Positions 38,399-49,722 of a stretch of 64,000 nucleotides of DNA are shown in pieces. The notes beneath the pieces were generated by a model that did not search any database, had not been told where the DNA came from, and saw only the letters and a program-made list of their open reading frames with translations. Made by a program: the position numbers and the translations under genes. Source of the DNA: Bdellovibrionales bacterium (lineage in GTDB: Bacteria; Bdellovibrionota; UBA1018; CAIMNF01); NCBI GenBank assembly GCA_947502835.1, contig CANNBJ010000004.1:124001-188000 (forward strand), written 5' to 3'. Each line of letters opens with the position of its first letter. Position 1 is the stretch's first letter.

Positions 38399-38787
38399 AA
38401 ACTGGTCCCTTTGCGAACTGGCCTCTTTGAGTGGGCATGGCGTTTAGATTTGGGTAGGCAATCCCCTTTGATTCTTTGAGGTTTAGCCTCCGAGCCGCGT
38501 CCTGCGGCCTTGCTTTCGTCCGTCCGAGCTCGCAAGAGTCGGCTAAACCTCAAAGAATCAAAGGGGTTGGCCTCCACAAGCCCGAAGACCATGCCCACTC
38601 AAAGATGGCAGTTAGCAAGCTCTATCCCTCGCGAATCATGCCCACTCAAAGGGACCCGTTGGGGTGCATTTTTTGCCGAATTGACGCAAGCGAGGCCGCA
38701 GGACGCGGCTCGAAGGTGAAACCTTTGTGACTCTGACGGGTTAGGTCACCGAAGCTCGCGAATCATGCCCACTGAAAGAGACCAACT
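38399..38787. mobile_element. Cluster of nested/truncated MITE copies (family A)
   Basis: This interval between grpE and the helicase gene contains at least three pieces of the same repeat family. AACTGGTCCCTTTG (38399-38412) is a left terminal repeat cut short by a complete inner element (38416-38613). A right-type terminal repeat lies at 38638-38660 (ending GGGACCCGTT), and another at 38765-38787 (ending GAGACCAACT). The stretch 38661-38764 is the right half of a second-type element similar to the copy at 40311-40506. CTCGCGAATCATGCCCACT occurs twice, before each right-type end. No genes are present. Confidence 0.75.
38416..38613. mobile_element. MITE-like element, family A, 198 bp, complete
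   Basis: Terminal inverted repeats of about 23 bases (left AACTGGCCTCTTTGAGTGGG, right the reverse complement with a few changes) enclose long internal arms: TTTGATTCTTTGAGGTTTAG pairs with its complement CTAAACCTCAAAGAATCAAA. The GC-rich loop is the reverse complement of the loop in the 49525 copy, so this copy is inserted in the opposite orientation. Length is identical to that copy. No coding capacity. Confidence 0.85.
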
Positions 38788-38800
38788 CGAGAGGCGATCT

Positions 38801-40310: not shown

Positions 40311-40506
40311 AACTGGCCCTTTTGAATGGGCATGGCCATAGAGTTTCGGATTAGAACCCATTGGATTTATGGAGGTTTGACCGACTTTCGCGAGTTCGGA
40401 TTGACGATAGCGATGCCGCGGGAGGCGGCTCGGGGCGAAACACCTGTGACTCCGATGGGATCGGTCAATGGAGCCCAGGCTCCATGCCCATTCAAGAGGG
40501 CCAGTT
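40311..40506. mobile_element. MITE-like element, family A subtype II, 196 bp
   Basis: Ends are AACTGGCCCTTTTGAATGGG (left) and the near-exact inverted complement ATGCCCATTCAAGAGGGCCAGTT truncated here to its last 20 bases CCCATTCAAGAGGGCCAGTT (right). The interior shares the subtype seen in the half copy at 38661-38764 (GAGGCGGCTCGG-like core and ACCTGTGACTC) and has weaker arms than the 198-bp copies. It lies 55 bases before the start of the Cys-rich secreted gene and 19 bases from the helicase start, so it separates two divergent promoters. Confidence 0.8.
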
Positions 40507-40561: not shown

Positions 40562-41626
40562 ATGTACAAAAATGGTTCAAAAACGATGCTGATGAAGGTT
40601 CTTTTAATAGCACTGACTTCACTAAATGCCTGGTTCGCCCCTTCGGCAAAAGCGGAAGTGGACGTGATTTCCTGCGGTTCGGTTACATTCGATACCTGCA
40701 GCGTAAACATGCTCTGTTTTGATGACGGCTATCACAAGGTCACAAAATGTGTGAATAAGCCTGCAACTTGGTATCGTCAAAACGCCAAGAATAAGGTTTT
40801 CTATACGGCGCTTTCCAAAAAAGAATTGATCGAGCGAGGGCTGATCAGGAATGCCAGCGTTTCAGGAGGAGTGGGTCATGCCCAGGTCACCGTGCGTCAC
40901 GGCAAATCAGACACAGATACCTATGTGTATCGGCATTCATCCAGATCTTCTGATCCCTGGAATGTTCTTCGCGTGGGTTGTCCTGAACTAACCGGGGTCG
41001 TTAATGAAAAACGTGAAGATTTGTCAAGTTTAAGGAAGCAGTTGGTCTCTGCGGAAAAAAAACTACAGGAGGTGAAGTTCAAACTCTCAGATTGTCATAA
41101 GGACTGCCGGAACTTTGCAGTCAAGGACTCATCGAATAAGTGTCACTTTAAAAAAGTGAAGAGGGTGAACGACTATAAGAAAGTTGCGAAATATCTCACC
41201 GGAGATGATTTTAAGAATCCTGAACTGGCTCAATTCCTGGCGGATGGCCAAACAAACGGAAAAACCTTGGTCCAATCAGATTTCAAGGGAAGCGAAGGCG
41301 ACATTTGCGAAAAGCTTCTTGAGGATGAAGGGTGTGCGGAGTTTTTGTTGGATGAGAATCTTGGATCTTGTTTTGAGGATGAGGATTACGCAGCCTGGAG
41401 AGACAAGGCCAAGAAGGTCGGTGATCTCAAGGTTCGGATTGCGGTGCTTGAGCGGGATGCAGATATAAATGTGTGCGTGATTAGCAAAACCCGCTTACCA
41501 AACCCAGACACCTATGGTGACAAATCCGTCGCATGTCTTGAGTTGATGGCACAAACCTGTTTTGACGAGCTTGATCGACTCTTTGCCGAGCAAAACCCGG
41601 ATTGCGTTGATTGCAACATGCGCTAA
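40562..41626 (+). CDS. Cys-rich secreted protein, paralogue 1
   Basis: A 354-residue exported protein (signal peptide ending SAKA, residue 31). Cysteines at 38, 46, 52 and 63 match the spacing in the gene at 42947. Later shared blocks are CHKDCR, YLTGDD, DFKGSEGDICEKL, KSVACL, and a C-terminal CVDCN at which this protein ends. A coiled-coil-like segment (SSLRKQLVSAEKKLQEVK) lies in the middle. Many paired cysteines suggest a disulphide-stabilised extracytoplasmic protein. I know no family for it. GAGGA lies before the ATG. A MITE is directly upstream and may carry or disrupt its promoter. It converges with hemW, overlapping by 4 bases. Confidence 0.8.
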   Translation: MYKNGSKTMLMKVLLIALTSLNAWFAPSAKAEVDVISCGSVTFDTCSVNMLCFDDGYHKVTKCVNKPATWYRQNAKNKVFYTALSKKELIERGLIRNASVSGGVGHAQVTVRHGKSDTDTYVYRHSSRSSDPWNVLRVGCPELTGVVNEKREDLSSLRKQLVSAEKKLQEVKFKLSDCHKDCRNFAVKDSSNKCHFKKVKRVNDYKKVAKYLTGDDFKNPELAQFLADGQTNGKTLVQSDFKGSEGDICEKLLEDEGCAEFLLDENLGSCFEDEDYAAWRDKAKKVGDLKVRIAVLERDADINVCVISKTRLPNPDTYGDKSVACLELMAQTCFDELDRLFAEQNPDCVDCNMR

Positions 41627-42762
41627 AGTAGCTCCTTCACAAGCGCATCACTGAGTGCAAAGCCTCTCACGGTGGCTCGTAGGCGTTCGGGATGATCTGG
41701 ATGCTCTTCGAGCAAGCCCCTTTCGATAAAAAGGTGCCCCTTTTGGCGTTGCCGATCTGAGACGAGCCACACCTTTGGAAAGCCCTCGCTCAGTCGAATC
41801 GCAAGCATCCATTTTTCAAGTTCCATTTGCGATTCATTCAGAGTCTCCGACCACTCCATCGGGAGGCGGCTTTCTTCAATGAGCATCGTTGCATATTTGT
41901 GAAGCGAGGAAACATTCTTAAAGCGCACGCGCGCATCTTTGGAGAAGGAGTGTGCGGAAGGTCCGAACGAAAGGTAAGAGCCTCCGGTCCAGTACACGAG
42001 GTTGTGACGGGCTTGACGGCCAGGGCGGGCAAAATTCGAGATTTCATAATGATCAAATCCCCGTGCGCGCATTTCTTGGTCAATCAGGAGCAGGTGTTCA
42101 AGCTGCTCGTTCTCGTTCGGAAGTTCCTTGTACATCGAATGATGGGGAGGAAGGGTCAACAGGTAAATCGAGAGGTGCTGGATCGGAAACGAAGTGAGGC
42201 GCTCGATGTGCGATTTTAGATCGTGAATCGTCTGTCCGGGTACACCACAAAGAAGATCGGTCGAAACATTTTGAAACCCGGCTGAAAACACCGCTTCCAG
42301 AGCCTGAGTTGCCTGTGCCTCATCGTGCACGCGACCGAGCTTCAGCAAATGCTCTCCCTTTAAGCTCTGCACTCCCATGCTGACACGGTTGATGCCGAGC
42401 GCTTTGAAAGCGCGGAATTTTTCAACATCAATCGAGGAAGGATTCGCTTCCATTGTCCACTCATAGCCGGGCGCAAGGGTGGCGTACCGAAACAGAGTGT
42501 CTGTGATTCGCTTCATGGAGTCGGGCGGAGTCATGCTCGGTGTCCCGCCCCCAAAAAAGATGGTCTCGATCGGAGAGGCGAGCTCGCCCCCTTCTCCGCG
42601 GAGAGTGATTTCGCGGATCATGGCGGTTTCAAAACGATCCGGATCGCCGGGCTTTGTTTTTTCGCGACCGAGCGAGTAAAAGTCGCAGTAATGACACTTG
42701 GTTTCGCAGAAGGGGAAGTGAAAATAAAGGGATCGGGCCGCGCGGGCCTCCGCCAAAGTCAT
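41623..42762 (-). CDS. hemW: Radical SAM protein HemW (haem chaperone, CPO-III-like)
   Basis: A 379-residue radical SAM protein. The Fe-S motif is CETKCHYC (C19, C23, C26). FFGGGTPSMT follows, and MEANPSS is the next family block. The C-terminal HemN_C-like part (WTGGSYLSFGPSAHSF) is present. The N-terminal Cys that HemN has is absent, as expected for HemW, which binds haem rather than making protoporphyrinogen. A TTGACA (42797-42792) and TTAGAT (42774-42769) on the minus strand would give a nearly leaderless mRNA, but the -10 is poor. It sits between two paralogous Cys-rich genes read on the opposite strand. Confidence 0.92.
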   Translation of the reverse strand: MTLAEARAARSLYFHFPFCETKCHYCDFYSLGREKTKPGDPDRFETAMIREITLRGEGGELASPIETIFFGGGTPSMTPPDSMKRITDTLFRYATLAPGYEWTMEANPSSIDVEKFRAFKALGINRVSMGVQSLKGEHLLKLGRVHDEAQATQALEAVFSAGFQNVSTDLLCGVPGQTIHDLKSHIERLTSFPIQHLSIYLLTLPPHHSMYKELPNENEQLEHLLLIDQEMRARGFDHYEISNFARPGRQARHNLVYWTGGSYLSFGPSAHSFSKDARVRFKNVSSLHKYATMLIEESRLPMEWSETLNESQMELEKWMLAIRLSEGFPKVWLVSDRQRQKGHLFIERGLLEEHPDHPERLRATVRGFALSDALVKELL

Positions 42763-42854
42763 GACCGGATCTAAGCAGTGCCCGCACGAACTGTCAACCG
42801 AATGGCGTGGATTAACAAAAAAGTAGCTGTTTTCCGCGGGAAATCAAAATAATT

Positions 42855-42883
42855 TTGGTATTCCCTCAGACTTTCGCTACTAT
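42855..42883 (+). promoter_or_regulatory. Promoter of the Gly/Met-rich Cys protein gene
   Basis: TTGGTA (42855-42860) and TACTAT (42878-42883) are separated by 17 bases. Each matches the consensus at four positions. Transcription would begin near 42890, just before the leader hairpin. Confidence 0.5.
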
Positions 42884-42896
42884 TTTAAGCGGTACC

Positions 42897-42918
42897 CTCC
42901 AGAAAAGGATTTCTGGAG
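42897..42918 (+). promoter_or_regulatory. Leader stem-loop with AGGA loop
   Basis: CTCCAGAAA and TTTCTGGAG form a perfect nine-pair stem around the loop AGGA, near the predicted 5' end of the mRNA and 16 bases before the GAGGAG ribosome site. It could protect the mRNA end or bind a regulator. Confidence 0.55.
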
Positions 42919-42946
42919 CCGAAAAGACACTTTGAGGAGCTTACTC

Positions 42947-44995
42947 ATGTCCAAAAATTTTTTTAGCAAGATGCTGGTGAATGTTCTCACGATCTCACTG
43001 ATTTTCCAAAACACCTGGGTGGTTCGCTCTGCGAATGCAGAAGATTATTACGCCTGCAAGAGTCTTTCGGCTGATACCTGCACAGAGGGAAAATACTGCA
43101 TAGAGGACGGGGAGTACTATAAGATTAAAAGATGTAAATATAAAAACGGGAGTTTCCTTGGGGTTGATTATAGCAAAAGCAAACATAGAGCAAGGAAAGC
43201 TAGTACCAAGCAGCTCATAGAAGACGGGATCATCACCATTCCACAGCCTACGGTTAAAAAAACTGTGTACAAGGATAGTGACACGGATAAAGACGATTCA
43301 GAAACTGAGACAGTGGAGAAAGTTCCGTGCTACCTTTATCGTGATTGCGCCTATCAAAAAGTAGTGGTGCGTTCTGGAAGCTACACAGATCAATATGATT
43401 ATTTGTCCGTTGCATGCGAAGATGTATATGAGTTCCAGTCAAAGAGAACGGATGAGAAGAAGACTAGGGATGGGGAGCTTAAAAAGTTAGATAAGGAGCT
43501 CAAAGATTTGGCAGGTCAGATGTCCGACATTTGGGAAGGATGTCACAAAGATTGTCGAGACCTTGTGATTACAAAGGCTTGTGAGTACAAAACTTTGGAA
43601 ATCAAGAACAAGAAAATAATCGCACGATTGCTTACCGGGGATGATTACGACTCCTTCTATGGAAACACCTCTTCCGATGGGTATAAGTTCTTTGAAATGG
43701 GTGGTCAAAATGTTGTTTCCTCGAAGAATGACTTTCAGGGTAGCAAAGGTGATTTGTGCCAGAAATTCCTGAAAAGCGATGGTTGCATCAAAGCGTTAAT
43801 CGATAACACAGCTTGTGACACGGATGGTTTGCTGGCCCAGTACCTAACGAAGAAGCAAGAGTATGACAAGGTCAAGGCGGATCTAGATGCCTTGAATGCG
43901 CCTCTAGCGGACGATGACAAGGAATGTAGAGTTCCTCCGTCCAAAAATGCACATAAGGATAATTTGAAGGGTAAGTCTGTTGCGTGTTTGGATTCGATTG
44001 CGGCAAGTTGCGAAGAGTATTTGTCATTCTTAAGCGCCCACGTCTCAGACGAATGCGTGGATTGCAACAAAAGCTCCTCTGCAAATCAAAATGACCAATA
44101 CAATCAACAACAGTTCTGCTTCTACGGTCCCTGCCCTCCGGGCGTAAGCAAGGCGGCGCAAGTCATTGGTGCGATCGGTGGGCTTGCAGTTCCCCTCGGA
44201 CTCGGTGCGATGCAGATGTCCATGTACAACCGGGGCTTGAATGCATGTACCTCGAATTATGCACTTCAGGTTGCTCAGGCGACCTATGTGGGTCTTCCTC
44301 CAACCGCATCCATGTGCGGAGTGGGTGGCTTCGGAATGGGCGGATTTATGGGCGGCCTCGGTGGAATGGGCGGGCTTGGCGGTATGGGCGGATTTGGAAT
44401 GAATCCTTACATGATGGGCGGGCTTGGCGGCATGGGTGGATTTGGAATGAATCCTTTCATGATGGGCGGGCTTGGCGGCATGGGTGGACTTGGTTTGAAT
44501 GCGGGCCTGAGCCTTGGGCTTGGAATGGGCATGAACCCCATGATGATGGGCGGAATGGGCATGAACCCCATGATGATGGGTGGAATGGGCATGAACCCCA
44601 TGATGATGGGTGGAATGGGCATGAACCCCATGATGATGGGTGGAATGGGCATGAACCCCATGATGGGAATTCAGCAGCAAATGTTTGATTCCCAGATCCG
44701 GATGCAGGAAATGGCTGCGATGCAAATGGCTGCCCAAACTGCCTACGGCATGGGCTATCCAAACATGATGAATGGAATGAGCATGCCGTACTACGGAATG
44801 GGGTCCAATCCCATGATGTTCAACCCGATGATGAACAACGGGCTCTACATGAATGCCGGAGTGAATTTCGGAAGCTCCTTTGGGAGTCCGTACGGCAGCA
44901 TGAATCCGTATGGAAACATGAATCCTTACGGGAATATGATGAACCCCTATGGAAACGGTTGCGGCTACTACATGGCCGGGATCCCGTGCCAGTGA
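42947..44995 (+). CDS. Cys-rich secreted protein, paralogue 2, with Gly/Met-rich repeat tail
   Basis: A 682-residue exported protein (signal peptide ending SANA, residue 31). The N-terminal 370 residues are homologous to the gene at 40562: Cys 37, 45, 51, 63, then CHKDCR, LLTGDDYD, DFQGSKGDLCQKF, KSVACL and CVDCN. After a Gln/Asn linker and a hydrophobic Ala/Gly segment (KAAQVIGAIGGLAVPLGLG), residues about 460-575 are Gly/Met/Asn/Phe repeats, first with 18-residue units (GGLGGMGGFGMNPYMM), then five MGMNPMMMGG units. The end is Met/Tyr/Asn/Pro-rich and closes GCGYYMAGIPCQ. GAGGAG precedes the ATG at the right distance. Likely a surface or extracellular structural protein. Confidence 0.82.
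   Translation: MSKNFFSKMLVNVLTISLIFQNTWVVRSANAEDYYACKSLSADTCTEGKYCIEDGEYYKIKRCKYKNGSFLGVDYSKSKHRARKASTKQLIEDGIITIPQPTVKKTVYKDSDTDKDDSETETVEKVPCYLYRDCAYQKVVVRSGSYTDQYDYLSVACEDVYEFQSKRTDEKKTRDGELKKLDKELKDLAGQMSDIWEGCHKDCRDLVITKACEYKTLEIKNKKIIARLLTGDDYDSFYGNTSSDGYKFFEMGGQNVVSSKNDFQGSKGDLCQKFLKSDGCIKALIDNTACDTDGLLAQYLTKKQEYDKVKADLDALNAPLADDDKECRVPPSKNAHKDNLKGKSVACLDSIAASCEEYLSFLSAHVSDECVDCNKSSSANQNDQYNQQQFCFYGPCPPGVSKAAQVIGAIGGLAVPLGLGAMQMSMYNRGLNACTSNYALQVAQATYVGLPPTASMCGVGGFGMGGFMGGLGGMGGLGGMGGFGMNPYMMGGLGGMGGFGMNPFMMGGLGGMGGLGLNAGLSLGLGMGMNPMMMGGMGMNPMMMGGMGMNPMMMGGMGMNPMMMGGMGMNPMMGIQQQMFDSQIRMQEMAAMQMAAQTAYGMGYPNMMNGMSMPYYGMGSNPMMFNPMMNNGLYMNAGVNFGSSFGSPYGSMNPYGNMNPYGNMMNPYGNGCGYYMAGIPCQ
44522..44667 (+). 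repeat. 30-bp tandem repeat, five units (last partial)
   Basis: GGAATGGGCATGAACCCCAT plus GATGATGGGY recurs at 44522, 44552, 44582, 44612 and 44642, nearly identical, encoding MGMNPMMMGG. The high identity suggests recent slippage or homogenisation. Confidence 0.92.
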
Positions 44996-45033
44996 TCTCA
45001 GGGTAGTTTCGTCTACGAACTGAATTGTATCGA

Positions 45034-45065
45034 GCCTCGGCGGGAGAACCCTGCCGGGGCTTTTT
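45034..45065 (+). terminator. Rho-independent terminator
   Basis: An 11-pair GC-rich stem with two G-T pairs (GCCTCGGCGGG / CCTGCCGGGGC), AGAAC-type loop, and five T residues, 39 bases after the Gly/Met-rich gene. Confidence 0.8.
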
Positions 45066-45193: not shown

Positions 45194-47002
45194 ATGGCAA
45201 AACTAAACACAGAAGCTACTGCTCCCAAGCAGCAGAAGAACCTTCTTTCCAATCTGAAGTGGATCGAAGAATTCAGCGATGTTCAAGGTGACATCGTTGA
45301 AACCCGCGCCCATGGAGGCGAGGAAGACTTCACGACTCTTTTTGAGAACCGTCAAAAAGACAGTGAAATCCAGGAAGGCGCAGTGATCGAGGGCGGTAAA
45401 GTCGTCGCAATCGGTCCCGAGTACGTCACCGTGGATATCGGATTCAAATGCGAAGGCTTTGTTCCGACCTACGAATTCAAGGATGCAACCGGCATCGCAA
45501 AAGTTGCGGTGGGCGACATTCTTTCTGTTTACGTGGAAAGGCTCGAAATCGAGCAAGGCATGATCCACCTCTCCAAGGACCGCGCGGACATCATCAAGGC
45601 GTGGGACGAAATCTCTGCTGCATGCGAAGGCGATCAGCTGGTGGAAGGGATTGTGATTGCAAAAGTGAAGGGCGGTCTTGCCGTTGATATCGGCGTGAAG
45701 GCGTTCCTTCCCGGCTCCCAGCTTGACACCAAAGCGGTCAAGAACCTCGACAAGTACATCGGCAGCCGCATGAAGTTCAAGATCCTGAAGTTCAACAAGA
45801 AGCGCGGTAACATCGTGCTTTCCCGCAAGGCGGTTGTTGCCCAGGAGCGCGAGCTTCAACGTGCAGAGACCCTCTCTCAAATGCAAGAGGGAATGGTCGT
45901 GGCAGGTACCGTGAAGAACATCACCGAATACGGTGCGTTCATTGATCTCGGCGGTATGGACGGACTCCTCCACATCACTGACATGTCTTGGGGACGCATC
46001 AAGCACCCAAGCGAGCTCTTCAATGTGGGCGATGAAGTGAAAGTGAAGATCCTGAAGTACGATCGCGAAAAAGAACGCGTATCACTCGGACTCAAGCAAG
46101 TATCTCCGAATCCTTGGGAAGAAGCAGAATACAAATTCCCAGTGGGTAAAGTGGTTAAGGGCAAAGTGGTCAGTCTCAAAGACTACGGCGCATTCGTTGA
46201 GCTCGACGACGGCGTTGAAGGTCTCATCCACGTGTCTGAAATGTCTTGGACTGAGCGCGTGAAGAACCCTGGCAAATACGTTAAAGTGGGCGACGTTGTG
46301 GAATGCAAGGTTCTCGAAGTCGACACCCGCAACAAGCGCATCAGCCTTGGAATGAAGCAGCTTCAGGAGAATCCTTGGGATGCTCTTGAGCTGAAGTTCC
46401 CTGTAGGCGCGATTGTTGACGAATGTGAAGTGAAGTCGATCACTGACTTCGGAATGTTCGTGGACGTTGGCATGGGAATCGATGGACTCATCCACGTTTC
46501 AGACCTGAGCTGGAACAAGAAGGTGACCAACCCGGCCGAGAAGTACAAGAAGGGCGACAAAGTGAAGGCGGTTGTGCTTGGAATCGACAAGCAAGCCGAG
46601 AAGTTCTCTTTGGGCGTGAAGCAGCTTGAGCGTGATCCTTGGGAGAACATCAAGAGCCGCTACCGCACCGGCCAGTCTGTGGAAGGCCTCGTGACCAAGA
46701 TCACCGATTTCGGTGCATTCATGGAAATCGAAGAAGGTGTGGAAGGGTTGATCTACGTAAGCGAGCTCTCTGAGCAGCGCGTAGAGAAGCCAAGCGACAT
46801 CGTGAAGCTCGGTGAAAAAGTTCGTGCAGAGATCCTCTCGATCGAACCAAAAGATCGCCGAATCAGCCTCTCGATCAAGCAACTCGGACGTTCTGAAGAG
46901 CGTGCGAACTACGAAACCTATATGGGCGATCGCAACAAGAAGACCTCCATGGGAGACATTCTGGGCGAGAAGCTCAAGGGCGCCCTTAAGAAGGACGAAT
47001 AA
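45194..47002 (+). CDS. rpsA: 30S ribosomal protein S1
   Basis: A 602-residue protein with six S1/OB RNA-binding domains. The third to sixth are the most regular, with GAFIDLGGMDGLLHITDMSW, GAFVELDDGVEGLIHVSEMS, GMFVDVGMGIDGLIHVSDLS and GAFMEIEEGVEGLIYVSELS. S1 brings mRNA to the 30S subunit. The start ATG at 45194 has AAGGA upstream, although 11 bases away. The N-terminal 30 residues are Lys/Ala/Gln-rich. The stop codon lies inside a perfect 12-pair hairpin. Confidence 0.96.
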   Translation: MAKLNTEATAPKQQKNLLSNLKWIEEFSDVQGDIVETRAHGGEEDFTTLFENRQKDSEIQEGAVIEGGKVVAIGPEYVTVDIGFKCEGFVPTYEFKDATGIAKVAVGDILSVYVERLEIEQGMIHLSKDRADIIKAWDEISAACEGDQLVEGIVIAKVKGGLAVDIGVKAFLPGSQLDTKAVKNLDKYIGSRMKFKILKFNKKRGNIVLSRKAVVAQERELQRAETLSQMQEGMVVAGTVKNITEYGAFIDLGGMDGLLHITDMSWGRIKHPSELFNVGDEVKVKILKYDREKERVSLGLKQVSPNPWEEAEYKFPVGKVVKGKVVSLKDYGAFVELDDGVEGLIHVSEMSWTERVKNPGKYVKVGDVVECKVLEVDTRNKRISLGMKQLQENPWDALELKFPVGAIVDECEVKSITDFGMFVDVGMGIDGLIHVSDLSWNKKVTNPAEKYKKGDKVKAVVLGIDKQAEKFSLGVKQLERDPWENIKSRYRTGQSVEGLVTKITDFGAFMEIEEGVEGLIYVSELSEQRVEKPSDIVKLGEKVRAEILSIEPKDRRISLSIKQLGRSEERANYETYMGDRNKKTSMGDILGEKLKGALKKDE

Positions 47003-47107
47003 CCCCCGGAAGGGGTTATTCGTGGGATCGCAGCGTGCCCCCAGTGGGGGCACATCGCACGTGATGTGCGATGGAGCGAGAACCCAACAAACCCCCGGAA
47101 GGGGTTT
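46995..47107 (+). other. Run of four hairpins over the rpsA stop codon and trailer
   Basis: Stem 1: ACGAATAACCCC with GGGGTTATTCGT (46995-47023), perfect, containing the TAA stop. Stem 2: GTGCCCCC with GGGGGCAC (47035-47053). Stem 3: CATCGCAC with GTGCGATG (47053-47073). Stem 4: AAACCCC with GGGGTTT (47089-47107), repeating the CCCCCGGAAGGGG core of stem 1. A true terminator follows at 47124. Confidence 0.75.
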
Positions 47108-47123
47108 TCATTGAATTCGATTG

Positions 47124-47155
47124 AGCCCTGGAGGAGTTTCTTCCAGGGCTTTTTT
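47124..47155 (+). terminator. Rho-independent terminator of rpsA
   Basis: AGCCCTGGA pairs with TTCCAGGGCT around an 8-base loop, followed by six T residues. Confidence 0.85.
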
Positions 47156-47192
47156 GTTGACCGAAATAAGCCGGAATAATAAGCTCCGCGCC

Positions 47193-49517
47193 ATGAAGTT
47201 GAGTGTTTTGGTTTTTTTCGGATGGGGATTCTTCACCGCTTCCTTTGCGCAAGGCACGCTGATCCCTGGGGCGGGGCCTGATCGAACTCCTTGGGTTGAG
47301 AAACTTCGCGAGGAGTTTCAGGTCGAGATCGTTGAGGACGACCCGGAGCTTTTTGATGCAGATCTGATGCAAGCGCTTCATGCGTATGTTTCAGTTTCAC
47401 CACGAACCAGACCAATTCATCTGCATGCCACAAAAAAGACGGGAGCCCGCAAGGTCTGGGTTCGGGATCGTGCGAATCCGGCAGAATCGGGTGTCATTGA
47501 TCTTTACTTTGCAAAAGACGCAGGCAAAGGGCTCTTCTCAAAAGGCCAGAGGCAGCAGACCCTGCTTGGGGATGGTCGCACCGAGATCACCCATGAATAC
47601 TCAAGCGATCTGACCCTTCAATTGAACGAGATTCTGTACCCGATCCCGGAGCTTCAGCGCATCTTGCTTGAGCGTTATCACATCAGGACCGATTGTGCAG
47701 GCGTGAGCGATCCCTGTGACTCCTTCAAAAAGAAGGAGTATCTCGCAATACTCGGAATTCTTCACGATCTTCCTCCGGTCATCCTTCAAACCTTCAAACT
47801 GAAACGGATGATTCGATTTCCCGATGGAGTTTCCAATATCCTGGAGGTCGATGCCGCCGCCGTCTATTCCGGAGACGGAACGATCCGTATCACAAGTAGG
47901 GCATTCGATGAGGAAGGGGATCGCCTCGGAGAGGGGACGCTCACTCATGAGATCGGCCATGCGGTTTGGTACGGAATGCCCCCTGGAATCCGTGAGTCTT
48001 TTGTCGCGATCTCCTGGGAGATGGATCCGAAAACCGGTGAAGCCCGGTTGAAGGGCGGAAACGGAAACTTCATCAGCGAGTACTCTCTCTCCAAACCGGA
48101 AGAGGATTTTGCCGAACATTTCTCGGCCTTTTTCAACCAGCCGGAAATGCTGAACCACCTCGCTCCTGTCAAGCGGGCGTGGCTGAAGGAGCGGATTTTC
48201 ATCGACACCGAGTATTTTTCGACCGCAGCCGAAAATGCCCGCATCCATGTGATTCCGGAGACTCCGGATACACGAGCGCCCGGGTTCACCGGTCGTGTGG
48301 ACAAAAGCATCGAGGTGAAGACGGAAGTTTTGGATCAAGAGCGGGTTCAGCTGCAGGTGCGCTTGAAGGGGCTCCGCGATGACGTGTCCGGCTTCTCCAG
48401 TGGATGGCTTACGTTTCGTTCCGATCCGAAGCCCGGGGTTCCGATGGCTGAATATGACCTGGAGGTCATCGCATCGGAATGCATACAACAAAAAGAGGAT
48501 GAATACATTCAGACCAGGATCTTGATGCGTTCGGAGTTGCCTCCCGGAGTCCTGAGCCTGAATGTGGTGAGGCTTCAGGACCGCGCGGGAAATTGGGATT
48601 ATGTATTTCCTGAAAGCACGGCGATCACACTCGATCTGCAAGGAACTGCATCCAAGCAGAGTCTTCTCGAAAAAAGTCATTCTTACGAGAATCAACGGCA
48701 GAAAAGGATTCGTGAGGCGATTGAGAAGAACCTGAAGCCTCTCCAAGGAGAGGTTCGTCTGGTCCCGGGGAAGGCGTCAGGCACCTTCATTCTTCACCTG
48801 CCAAAAGAAGTGGATCGACAGGAAGTCGATCTGACCGAGGTTCAGGTGAGGTTTCTGGGGATTCGAGATTGGGGAGTTCCCGGGGATTCCCATCTCGATT
48901 GGAATCACGAGCAGGAGCTTTCCTATCAATTCAAACGCAAGGAGATTCGGGACGGGACAAATGAATCCGGAGTGGATCTCTTTCTGGACCTCCGCCACGG
49001 AGTGAATCTCGATCGCATGAGTCTTTATGCAGTGGTTCTGAGTTACCGGACGCTCACCTGGAGTTTGTGGTTTCATCCACATCGGGAGGTCAAGGTGATC
49101 GAGCTTGATTCCATTGGCTCTGACCCAACGCCCGCGGAGATCGAAATCAACGACATCGACATTGATTTGGTTCGCCCGAATGGAACGAATGAGAACATGA
49201 TCATCAAAACCCGAATCCCCTTGAGTGGATTCGAGCACGGCGGGAGGGTTCGGATCACCTACCAGACTCCGAGTGGAAAGCGGATCACAGGCTCGGGACA
49301 AGAGCTGAAACCAGGAGAGTCGGTGGGGGACATTGAGATCAAACTCGACCGGTTCCGGGAAGGGGGCGAGTACCTCATTCGAGAGGTTGAGATTCTCGAG
49401 AACAGCCCGTCCGGCAGCAACCCTTCGATTACCCAAGGATCGCAATACCGTGTACAGAAGGTCCTGACACGGGGGATTCGGAAGACCGTGACGGTCGAGC
49501 CGAAGCTCGACCTTTGA
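47193..49517 (+). CDS. Secreted zinc metallopeptidase (HEIGH, anthrax-lethal-factor-like arrangement)
   Basis: A 774-residue exported protein (signal peptide ending ASFA before QGT). The active site is THEIGHAVW (HEIGH at about 252-256) with the third ligand probably in EEDFAEHFSAFF (about 302-312), an arrangement like ATLF/M34 and related gluzincin-type peptidases. The N-terminal 240 residues contain the substrate groove candidates, including a CAGVSDPC disulphide pair. After residue 350 come several beta-sandwich-like modules (LKGLRDDVSGFSSGWL, RLQDRAGNWDYVF) with a long charged linker between. Probably digests extracellular or periplasmic protein; target unknown. Ribosome site is weak. Confidence 0.8.
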   Translation: MKLSVLVFFGWGFFTASFAQGTLIPGAGPDRTPWVEKLREEFQVEIVEDDPELFDADLMQALHAYVSVSPRTRPIHLHATKKTGARKVWVRDRANPAESGVIDLYFAKDAGKGLFSKGQRQQTLLGDGRTEITHEYSSDLTLQLNEILYPIPELQRILLERYHIRTDCAGVSDPCDSFKKKEYLAILGILHDLPPVILQTFKLKRMIRFPDGVSNILEVDAAAVYSGDGTIRITSRAFDEEGDRLGEGTLTHEIGHAVWYGMPPGIRESFVAISWEMDPKTGEARLKGGNGNFISEYSLSKPEEDFAEHFSAFFNQPEMLNHLAPVKRAWLKERIFIDTEYFSTAAENARIHVIPETPDTRAPGFTGRVDKSIEVKTEVLDQERVQLQVRLKGLRDDVSGFSSGWLTFRSDPKPGVPMAEYDLEVIASECIQQKEDEYIQTRILMRSELPPGVLSLNVVRLQDRAGNWDYVFPESTAITLDLQGTASKQSLLEKSHSYENQRQKRIREAIEKNLKPLQGEVRLVPGKASGTFILHLPKEVDRQEVDLTEVQVRFLGIRDWGVPGDSHLDWNHEQELSYQFKRKEIRDGTNESGVDLFLDLRHGVNLDRMSLYAVVLSYRTLTWSLWFHPHREVKVIELDSIGSDPTPAEIEINDIDIDLVRPNGTNENMIIKTRIPLSGFEHGGRVRITYQTPSGKRITGSGQELKPGESVGDIEIKLDRFREGGEYLIREVEILENSPSGSNPSITQGSQYRVQKVLTRGIRKTVTVEPKLDL

Positions 49518-49524
49518 GGGCTCC

Positions 49525-49722
49525 AACTGGCCTCTTTGAATGGGCATGGCCTTCGGGCTTGTGAGGGCGAACCCCTTTGATTCTTGGAGGTTTAGCCGAC
49601 TCTTGCGAGTTCGGACTGACGAAAGCAAGGCCGCAGGACGCGGCTCGGAGGCTAAACCTCCAAGAATCAAAGGGAATTAGCCACCTAAGTCTAGACGCTA
49701 TGCCCACTCAAAGAGGCCAGTT
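49525..49722. mobile_element. MITE-like element, family A, 198 bp, complete
   Basis: Ends are AACTGGCCTCTTTGAATGGG and its inverted complement. Inside, CCCTTTGATTCTTGGAGGTT plus TAGCC is perfectly complemented about 50 bases later, giving a 25-pair cruciform-capable arm pair. The loop contains AGGCCGCAGGACGCGGCTC. The element starts 7 bases after the stop of the peptidase gene. No obvious target duplication is seen. Confidence 0.88.

Follow-up and report, generated by a model that had tools for sequence, protein, structure and literature searches.

An exported cysteine-rich protein family beside hemW in a genus of the Bdellovibrionales, with an order-wide tail module and a candidate CsrA-type leader

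Two paralogous genes flanking hemW

The window, the whole stretch of 64,000 nucleotides that was analysed, belongs to a 2.73-Mb genome of a Bdellovibrionales bacterium. Two genes, designated A and B, lie on either side of hemW (Table 1), and the stop codons of gene A and hemW overlap. The start of B was assigned to the ATG at position 42947, located behind an AGGAG motif, rather than to the TTG at position 42932, leading to a protein of 682 residues. Gene B looks monocistronic. Its candidate promoter was located by eye, the sequence being too degenerate for a pattern scan.

Table 1. Features of the hemW locus (positions in the window).
Feature	Positions	Strand	Remarks
Interspersed palindromic element	40311..40506		Terminal inverted repeats 40311-40335 and 40482-40506; multi-copy family
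Gene A	40562..41626	+	Tail-less paralogue, 354 aa; signal peptide at residues ~1-32
Cys core of A	40937..41623	+	Modelled as an all-helical bundle (mean pLDDT 76.8, pTM 0.70)
hemW	41623..42762	-	87% identity to HemW of the nearest species (G011)
Candidate promoter of B	42855..42883	+	TTGGTA-17 nt-TACTAT; region conserved in genus leaders; missed by consensus scan
Leader hairpin of B	42897..42918	+	CTCCAGAAA-AGGA-TTTCTGGAG, GGA in loop
Shine-Dalgarno sequence of B	42935..42939	+	AGGAG (second GGA); GGAG invariant in 11/11 aligned leaders
Gene B	42947..44995	+	Full-length member
Signal peptide of B	42947..43039	+	n, h and c regions; ANA-E cleavage-like site
Cys core of B	43373..44068	+	Ends at CVDCN; holds 11 of the 12 genus-invariant Cys
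Hydrophobic Gly/Pro segment of B	44147..44338	+	SKAAQVIGAIGGLAVPLGLGAMQM...VGLPP; common to the order; hydropathy peak 1.63
Gly/Met/Asn/Pro tail of B	44357..44992	+	Nearly uncharged; Q-rich helix region ~44660-44739; C-terminal Cys
Terminator-like hairpin 3' of B	45032..45062	+	13 pairs, then TTTCGTTT; shuffles give as many matches

The alignment of A with B comprised 113 identical residues out of 383 (30%, E-value of 6e-38) and spanned all of A, bearing out the proposal of an earlier note on this DNA that the genes flanking hemW are paralogous. Every shared block listed in that note (CHKDCR, LTGDD, DFxGSxGD, KSVACL, and CVDCN) was found, and its estimate of at least nine aligned cysteines was exceeded since 16 Cys columns were identical, each cysteine of mature A having a counterpart in B. 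As also proposed, A stops at the last of these blocks (C-terminus CVDCNMR), whereas B extends for about 308 residues beyond CVDCN, close to the 300 originally claimed, and the prediction of export signals in both proteins was supported. A search for further paralogues in the same genome revealed none that was convincing.

The claim that the two proteins belong to no known family held for Pfam, PHROGs, PADLOC, PDB sequences, and folds. The Pfam scan of A and B gave nothing above the cut-off, and the PHROGs and PADLOC scans gave no match. NCBIfam, queried with the order-level relatives described below, also gave nothing above the cut-off. The best matches in these four collections were far below the curated cut-offs. 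The best hit of a sequence-profile search of the PDB was a helicase (E-value of 0.012), which is not meaningful. Comparison of the core model with the PDB by Foldseek gave no significant fold match (best E-value of 0.86), and a viral fold search with the model of the A core detected no counterpart. No paper on the family was found in the literature.

Conservation of B in the genus and beyond

The gene hemW was located in 10 of the 11 other genomes of the genus, which are metagenome-assembled. In all ten, an orthologue of B adjoins hemW on its far side, followed by rpsA wherever the contig extends that far. The complete orthologues all contain a signal peptide, a Cys-rich part, a hydrophobic segment, a Gly-rich tail, and a Q-rich stretch, and the tail is only missing where the contig ends first. 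The tail-less form was seen in only two species, in both cases beside hemW. B is the founding gene of the pair and A is a derived, tail-less duplicate.

Loss of the Cys pattern in homologues, which the earlier note had named as evidence against its proposal, was not seen, 12 Cys columns being invariant in the genus alignment of A and nine B proteins. Their spacing in the core is nearly fixed (C-x37-54-C-x3-C-x8-16-C-x48-59-C-x7-8-C-x9-14-C-x34-41-C-x26-30-C-x14-19-C-x2-C). As judged from these alignments, it is the Cys-rich part that varies, although 12 cysteines are fixed within the genus. The genome contains two DSBA-fold genes. A model covering mature B up to and including the hydrophobic segment had a pLDDT of 55 and was taken for helix content only.

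A profile of the B proteins matched proteins from other genera of the order, chiefly in the CxxC motif and the hydrophobic segment. The full proteins from these genera have the same build as B, and a profile made from these order-level relatives revealed that the majority of families in the order have members. Comparison of the CxxC and hydrophobic part with the order profile by hhalign gave a probability of 98.4% (E-value of 9e-15). The Cys core gave a weak match (25%), so that homology of the core beyond the genus was not detected by profile-profile comparison; the order of the cysteines was similar by eye. The order-level relatives (L040, L043, L044, L045, and L051 among others) resemble B in having a signal peptide, a coiled coil with Cys pairs, a CPxC motif, the hydrophobic Gly/Pro segment, a YxxYLxxC-GVPC motif, Gly repeats, and a Q-rich helix, but differ from it in that their Cys cores are not detectably homologous. 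Their genes also differ in location: in the examined genomes they usually adjoin a CarD-like gene and a series of genes for glyoxalase, rhomboid, TrxB, LysS, LolC, LolD, and BamA, in contrast to the hemW-rpsA location of B. A search for an ancestral place of B beside LysS in the present genome was negative since the LysS gene had no LolCD, BamA, or rhomboid neighbours within a 17-kb stretch.

From sequence comparison, the features conserved beyond the genus are the CxxC motif, the hydrophobic Gly/Pro segment, the Gly-rich tail, and the Q-rich helix. B contains the hydrophobic segment after CxxC whereas A ends at CxxC, and the Gly-rich repeat tail and the Q-rich helix are present in B, its orthologues, and the order-level relatives but not in A. 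What A lacks is therefore the most ancient and most strongly conserved part, and the earlier description of the tail as an optional structural addition to a basic module has the relationship the wrong way round: the tail occurs in every complete B orthologue and the segment at its base is shared across the order, whereas no such sharing was detected for the Cys core. These comparisons define an exported, apparently unnamed protein family, which is order-wide in the Bdellovibrionales group and combines a conserved tail or putative assembly module with a fast-evolving, predicted disulphide-rich ectodomain at a fixed locus.

More distant candidates were detected in complete genomes from another family of the phylum. 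Two Gly/Met-repeat proteins (L093 and L095) resemble B in having a signal peptide, a coiled coil, a CVDC motif, a hydrophobic stretch, Gly/Met repeats, and a Q-rich helix. Their match is weak (E-value of about 1e-8) and largely due to the coiled coil, making them candidate homologues only, and their neighbours differ. A Gly/Met-repeat exported protein, a possible distant relative, is also encoded at positions 8079-10310 of L101, close to genes for a secretin and a T2SSE-type ATPase; L101 stems from a complete genome of 3.77 Mb that belongs to another family of the phylum.

The leader of B and the origin of A

The leader hairpin of B is located 28 nt upstream from the ATG codon, ahead of the GGA-containing Shine-Dalgarno sequence. 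In 9 of the 11 B leaders, a hairpin of 8 to 11 pairs with GGA in the loop was detected that exceeded chance expectation. The hairpin of G002 comprised 6 pairs and was not above chance, and that of G010 had no GGA in its loop. When seven different stems were positioned manually and their loops removed, six of the nine pairs changed on both sides and 96.8% of the cells were paired, values that none of 500 shuffles equalled; the stems were picked for pairing, which inflates the paired percentage and, to a lesser extent, the two-sided changes. The GGA-loop hairpin was absent from the leader of A, and no counterpart was found in folds of the extra copy of G004 (see below) or of the order-level genes.

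A GGA in a hairpin loop combined with a GGA-containing Shine-Dalgarno sequence is the anatomy of CsrA control (Csr/Rsm). The B leaders are similar to CsrA- and RsmA-regulated leaders in the location of the loop GGA upstream from such a Shine-Dalgarno sequence and in the presence of CsrA, which is encoded in all 12 genomes of the genus. They differ by the one genus member lacking GGA in the loop, and CsrA binding is predicted in the present case. Based on these similarities, synthesis of B is probably repressed by CsrA via the leader hairpin, which may alternatively be a 5' stabilising hairpin. A CsrA-type leader supported by covariation would provide a regulatory handle on a putative envelope protein of predator-related bacteria.

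The palindromic element upstream from gene A ends about 55 bp 5' of its ATG codon, and homology of the A leader to the B leader begins shortly past the element. Related copies are present at more than a dozen other sites in the genome. In G011, the gap between the DEAD gene and hemW contains no trace of gene A and is filled by a related palindromic element. Within the window, intergenic palindromic (MITE/REP-like) elements of about 200 bp were observed at positions 40311-40506, 38411-38795, and 49525-49722; relatives of these are also present in G011. The second species with a tail-less form is G004, in which a second copy beside hemW (positions 7450-8775 of L023) is closest to the B of the same genome and contains a doubled N-terminal module. 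On the opposite side of hemW in G004, positions 5599-6258 of L023 encode a Cys-rich exported protein, which looks unrelated.

The absence of the leader hairpin, the hydrophobic part, and the tail from A, its location with an interspersed element on one side and the hemW stop codon on the other, and its absence from the nearest species could indicate that A is a relic duplicate, severed from its control region and tail and unexpressed or barely expressed. We consider this possible but doubtful, since the 354 codons of A are intact and it retains the 16 cysteines, the signal peptide, and an SD-like GAGGA sequence. In addition, the core of A is 63% identical to that of G011 at the protein level despite near-saturated synonymous sites, which argues that A has long been under selection.

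Proposed role of B and diversification of the core

The reading that we favour, with a confidence somewhat better than even, is that B is an exported, disulphide-stapled, helical structural protein of the envelope or extracellular space under CsrA-type control. B would be exported by the Sec system. Its ectodomain would form a fast-changing helical bundle stapled by conserved disulphides, the hydrophobic Gly/Pro segment would anchor the protein or pack against partners, and the neutral Gly-rich tail and the Q-rich helix would drive assembly outside the cytoplasm. CsrA would repress synthesis through the leader hairpin. A, with a signal peptide and a Cys core but devoid of anchor, tail, and leader hairpin, would be a soluble duplicate, if expressed. 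This reading is supported by the signal peptide and the even set of 16 matched cysteines of A, the 12 invariant cysteines, the two DSBA-fold genes, the fairly confident helical core, the occurrence of the hydrophobic segment and of the neutral tail in all complete B proteins as well as in further families of the order, and, in a genus encoding CsrA throughout, the covarying GGA-loop hairpin, which is missing from A, the leader of which abuts the repeat element. Against it, the hydrophobic segment is borderline as a membrane helix (hydropathy of 1.4 to 2.0), no fold match suggests a role, and the hairpin is exceptional in G010 and G002 and missing from the order-level relatives. The envelope or extracellular role put forward for the family by the earlier note is plausible, and we infer this function together with the disulphides, location, assembly, and CsrA binding of B.

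Variation of the core between species on a scaffold of fixed cysteines would also be expected of a surface adhesin or receptor for contact with prey or kin, the fast core acting as the binding face. The organisms are Bdellovibrionales- or Oligoflexia-type MAGs, in agreement with this role, but no known adhesin domain was found and we consider it somewhat unlikely. The composition of the B tail (26% Met and 26% Gly, with tandem units of 30 bp and 48 bp) raises the question of metal binding or buffering, in particular of copper, by the Met-rich repeats and the cysteines. The G005 orthologue retains Gly repeats but has 3% Met in its tail, indicating that Met is not essential; other relatives carry G/Y/P/A repeats, and tail cysteines are few. 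Copper binding by Met repeats is thereby rejected as a general role, and a metal-binding function of B is very improbable.

Amino acid identity between B and its G011 counterpart is mosaic: 0.77 for the signal peptide, 0.20 for the N-terminal part, 0.31 for the core, 0.68 for the linker and hydrophobic segment, and 0.79 for the tail. The cores of A and G011 display an identity of 0.63. In agreement with this pattern, path lengths between B and G011 were 2.97 for the core region versus 0.37 for the tail, and that between A and G011 was 1.05. The tail tree grouped B with G011 (support of 96/97) and the Cys-part tree grouped A with G011 (89/94, not starred). These features, together with the altered leader and missing tail of A and the independent origin of the tail-less copy of G004, could be explained by exchange of the Cys core between copies or strains inside a constant signal peptide and tail, A being a stored alternative core. 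We regard such cassette exchange as unlikely, and to the same degree its possible logic, antigenic variation or kin recognition. The support of 89/94 is modest for this purpose, and a Cys-part topology constrained to group B with G011 was not rejected (p-AU of 0.051). The Cys parts of A, B, and G011 form one clade (100/99), indicating that B did not acquire its core from outside the lineage. Even hemW is close to saturation at synonymous sites, so that exchange and fast divergence of B after duplication are not separable with these data. The trio G001, G006, and G009 displays no swap.

The silent-cassette system pilE/pilS offers a comparison. The locus is similar in that a shortened copy whose leader is altered (A) lies close to a full gene with constant ends (B), but it differs by the presence of a single such copy and by the lack of near-identical blocks shared by A and B, the pilE/pilS-type criterion of gene conversion, none of which was found in this genome. 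Nucleotide identity between A and B ranged from 17 to 66% per 30-column block, which is too low for present-day gene conversion. A wider scheme of locus-specific diversification, in which the disulphide-stapled ectodomain of an envelope protein is exchanged inside an unchanging signal peptide and tail, tail-less cores are kept beside hemW, and the CsrA hairpin gates expression, is quite improbable.

Two other features were observed downstream in the window. A hairpin with a 12-bp stem, ACGAATAACCCC-CGGAA-GGGGTTATTCGT, spans the end of rpsA (positions 46995-47023). The large gene located 3' of rpsA (positions 47121-49517) displays 53% identity to its G011 counterpart, versus 86-99% for housekeeping neighbours, and encodes another fast-evolving, possibly exported protein.
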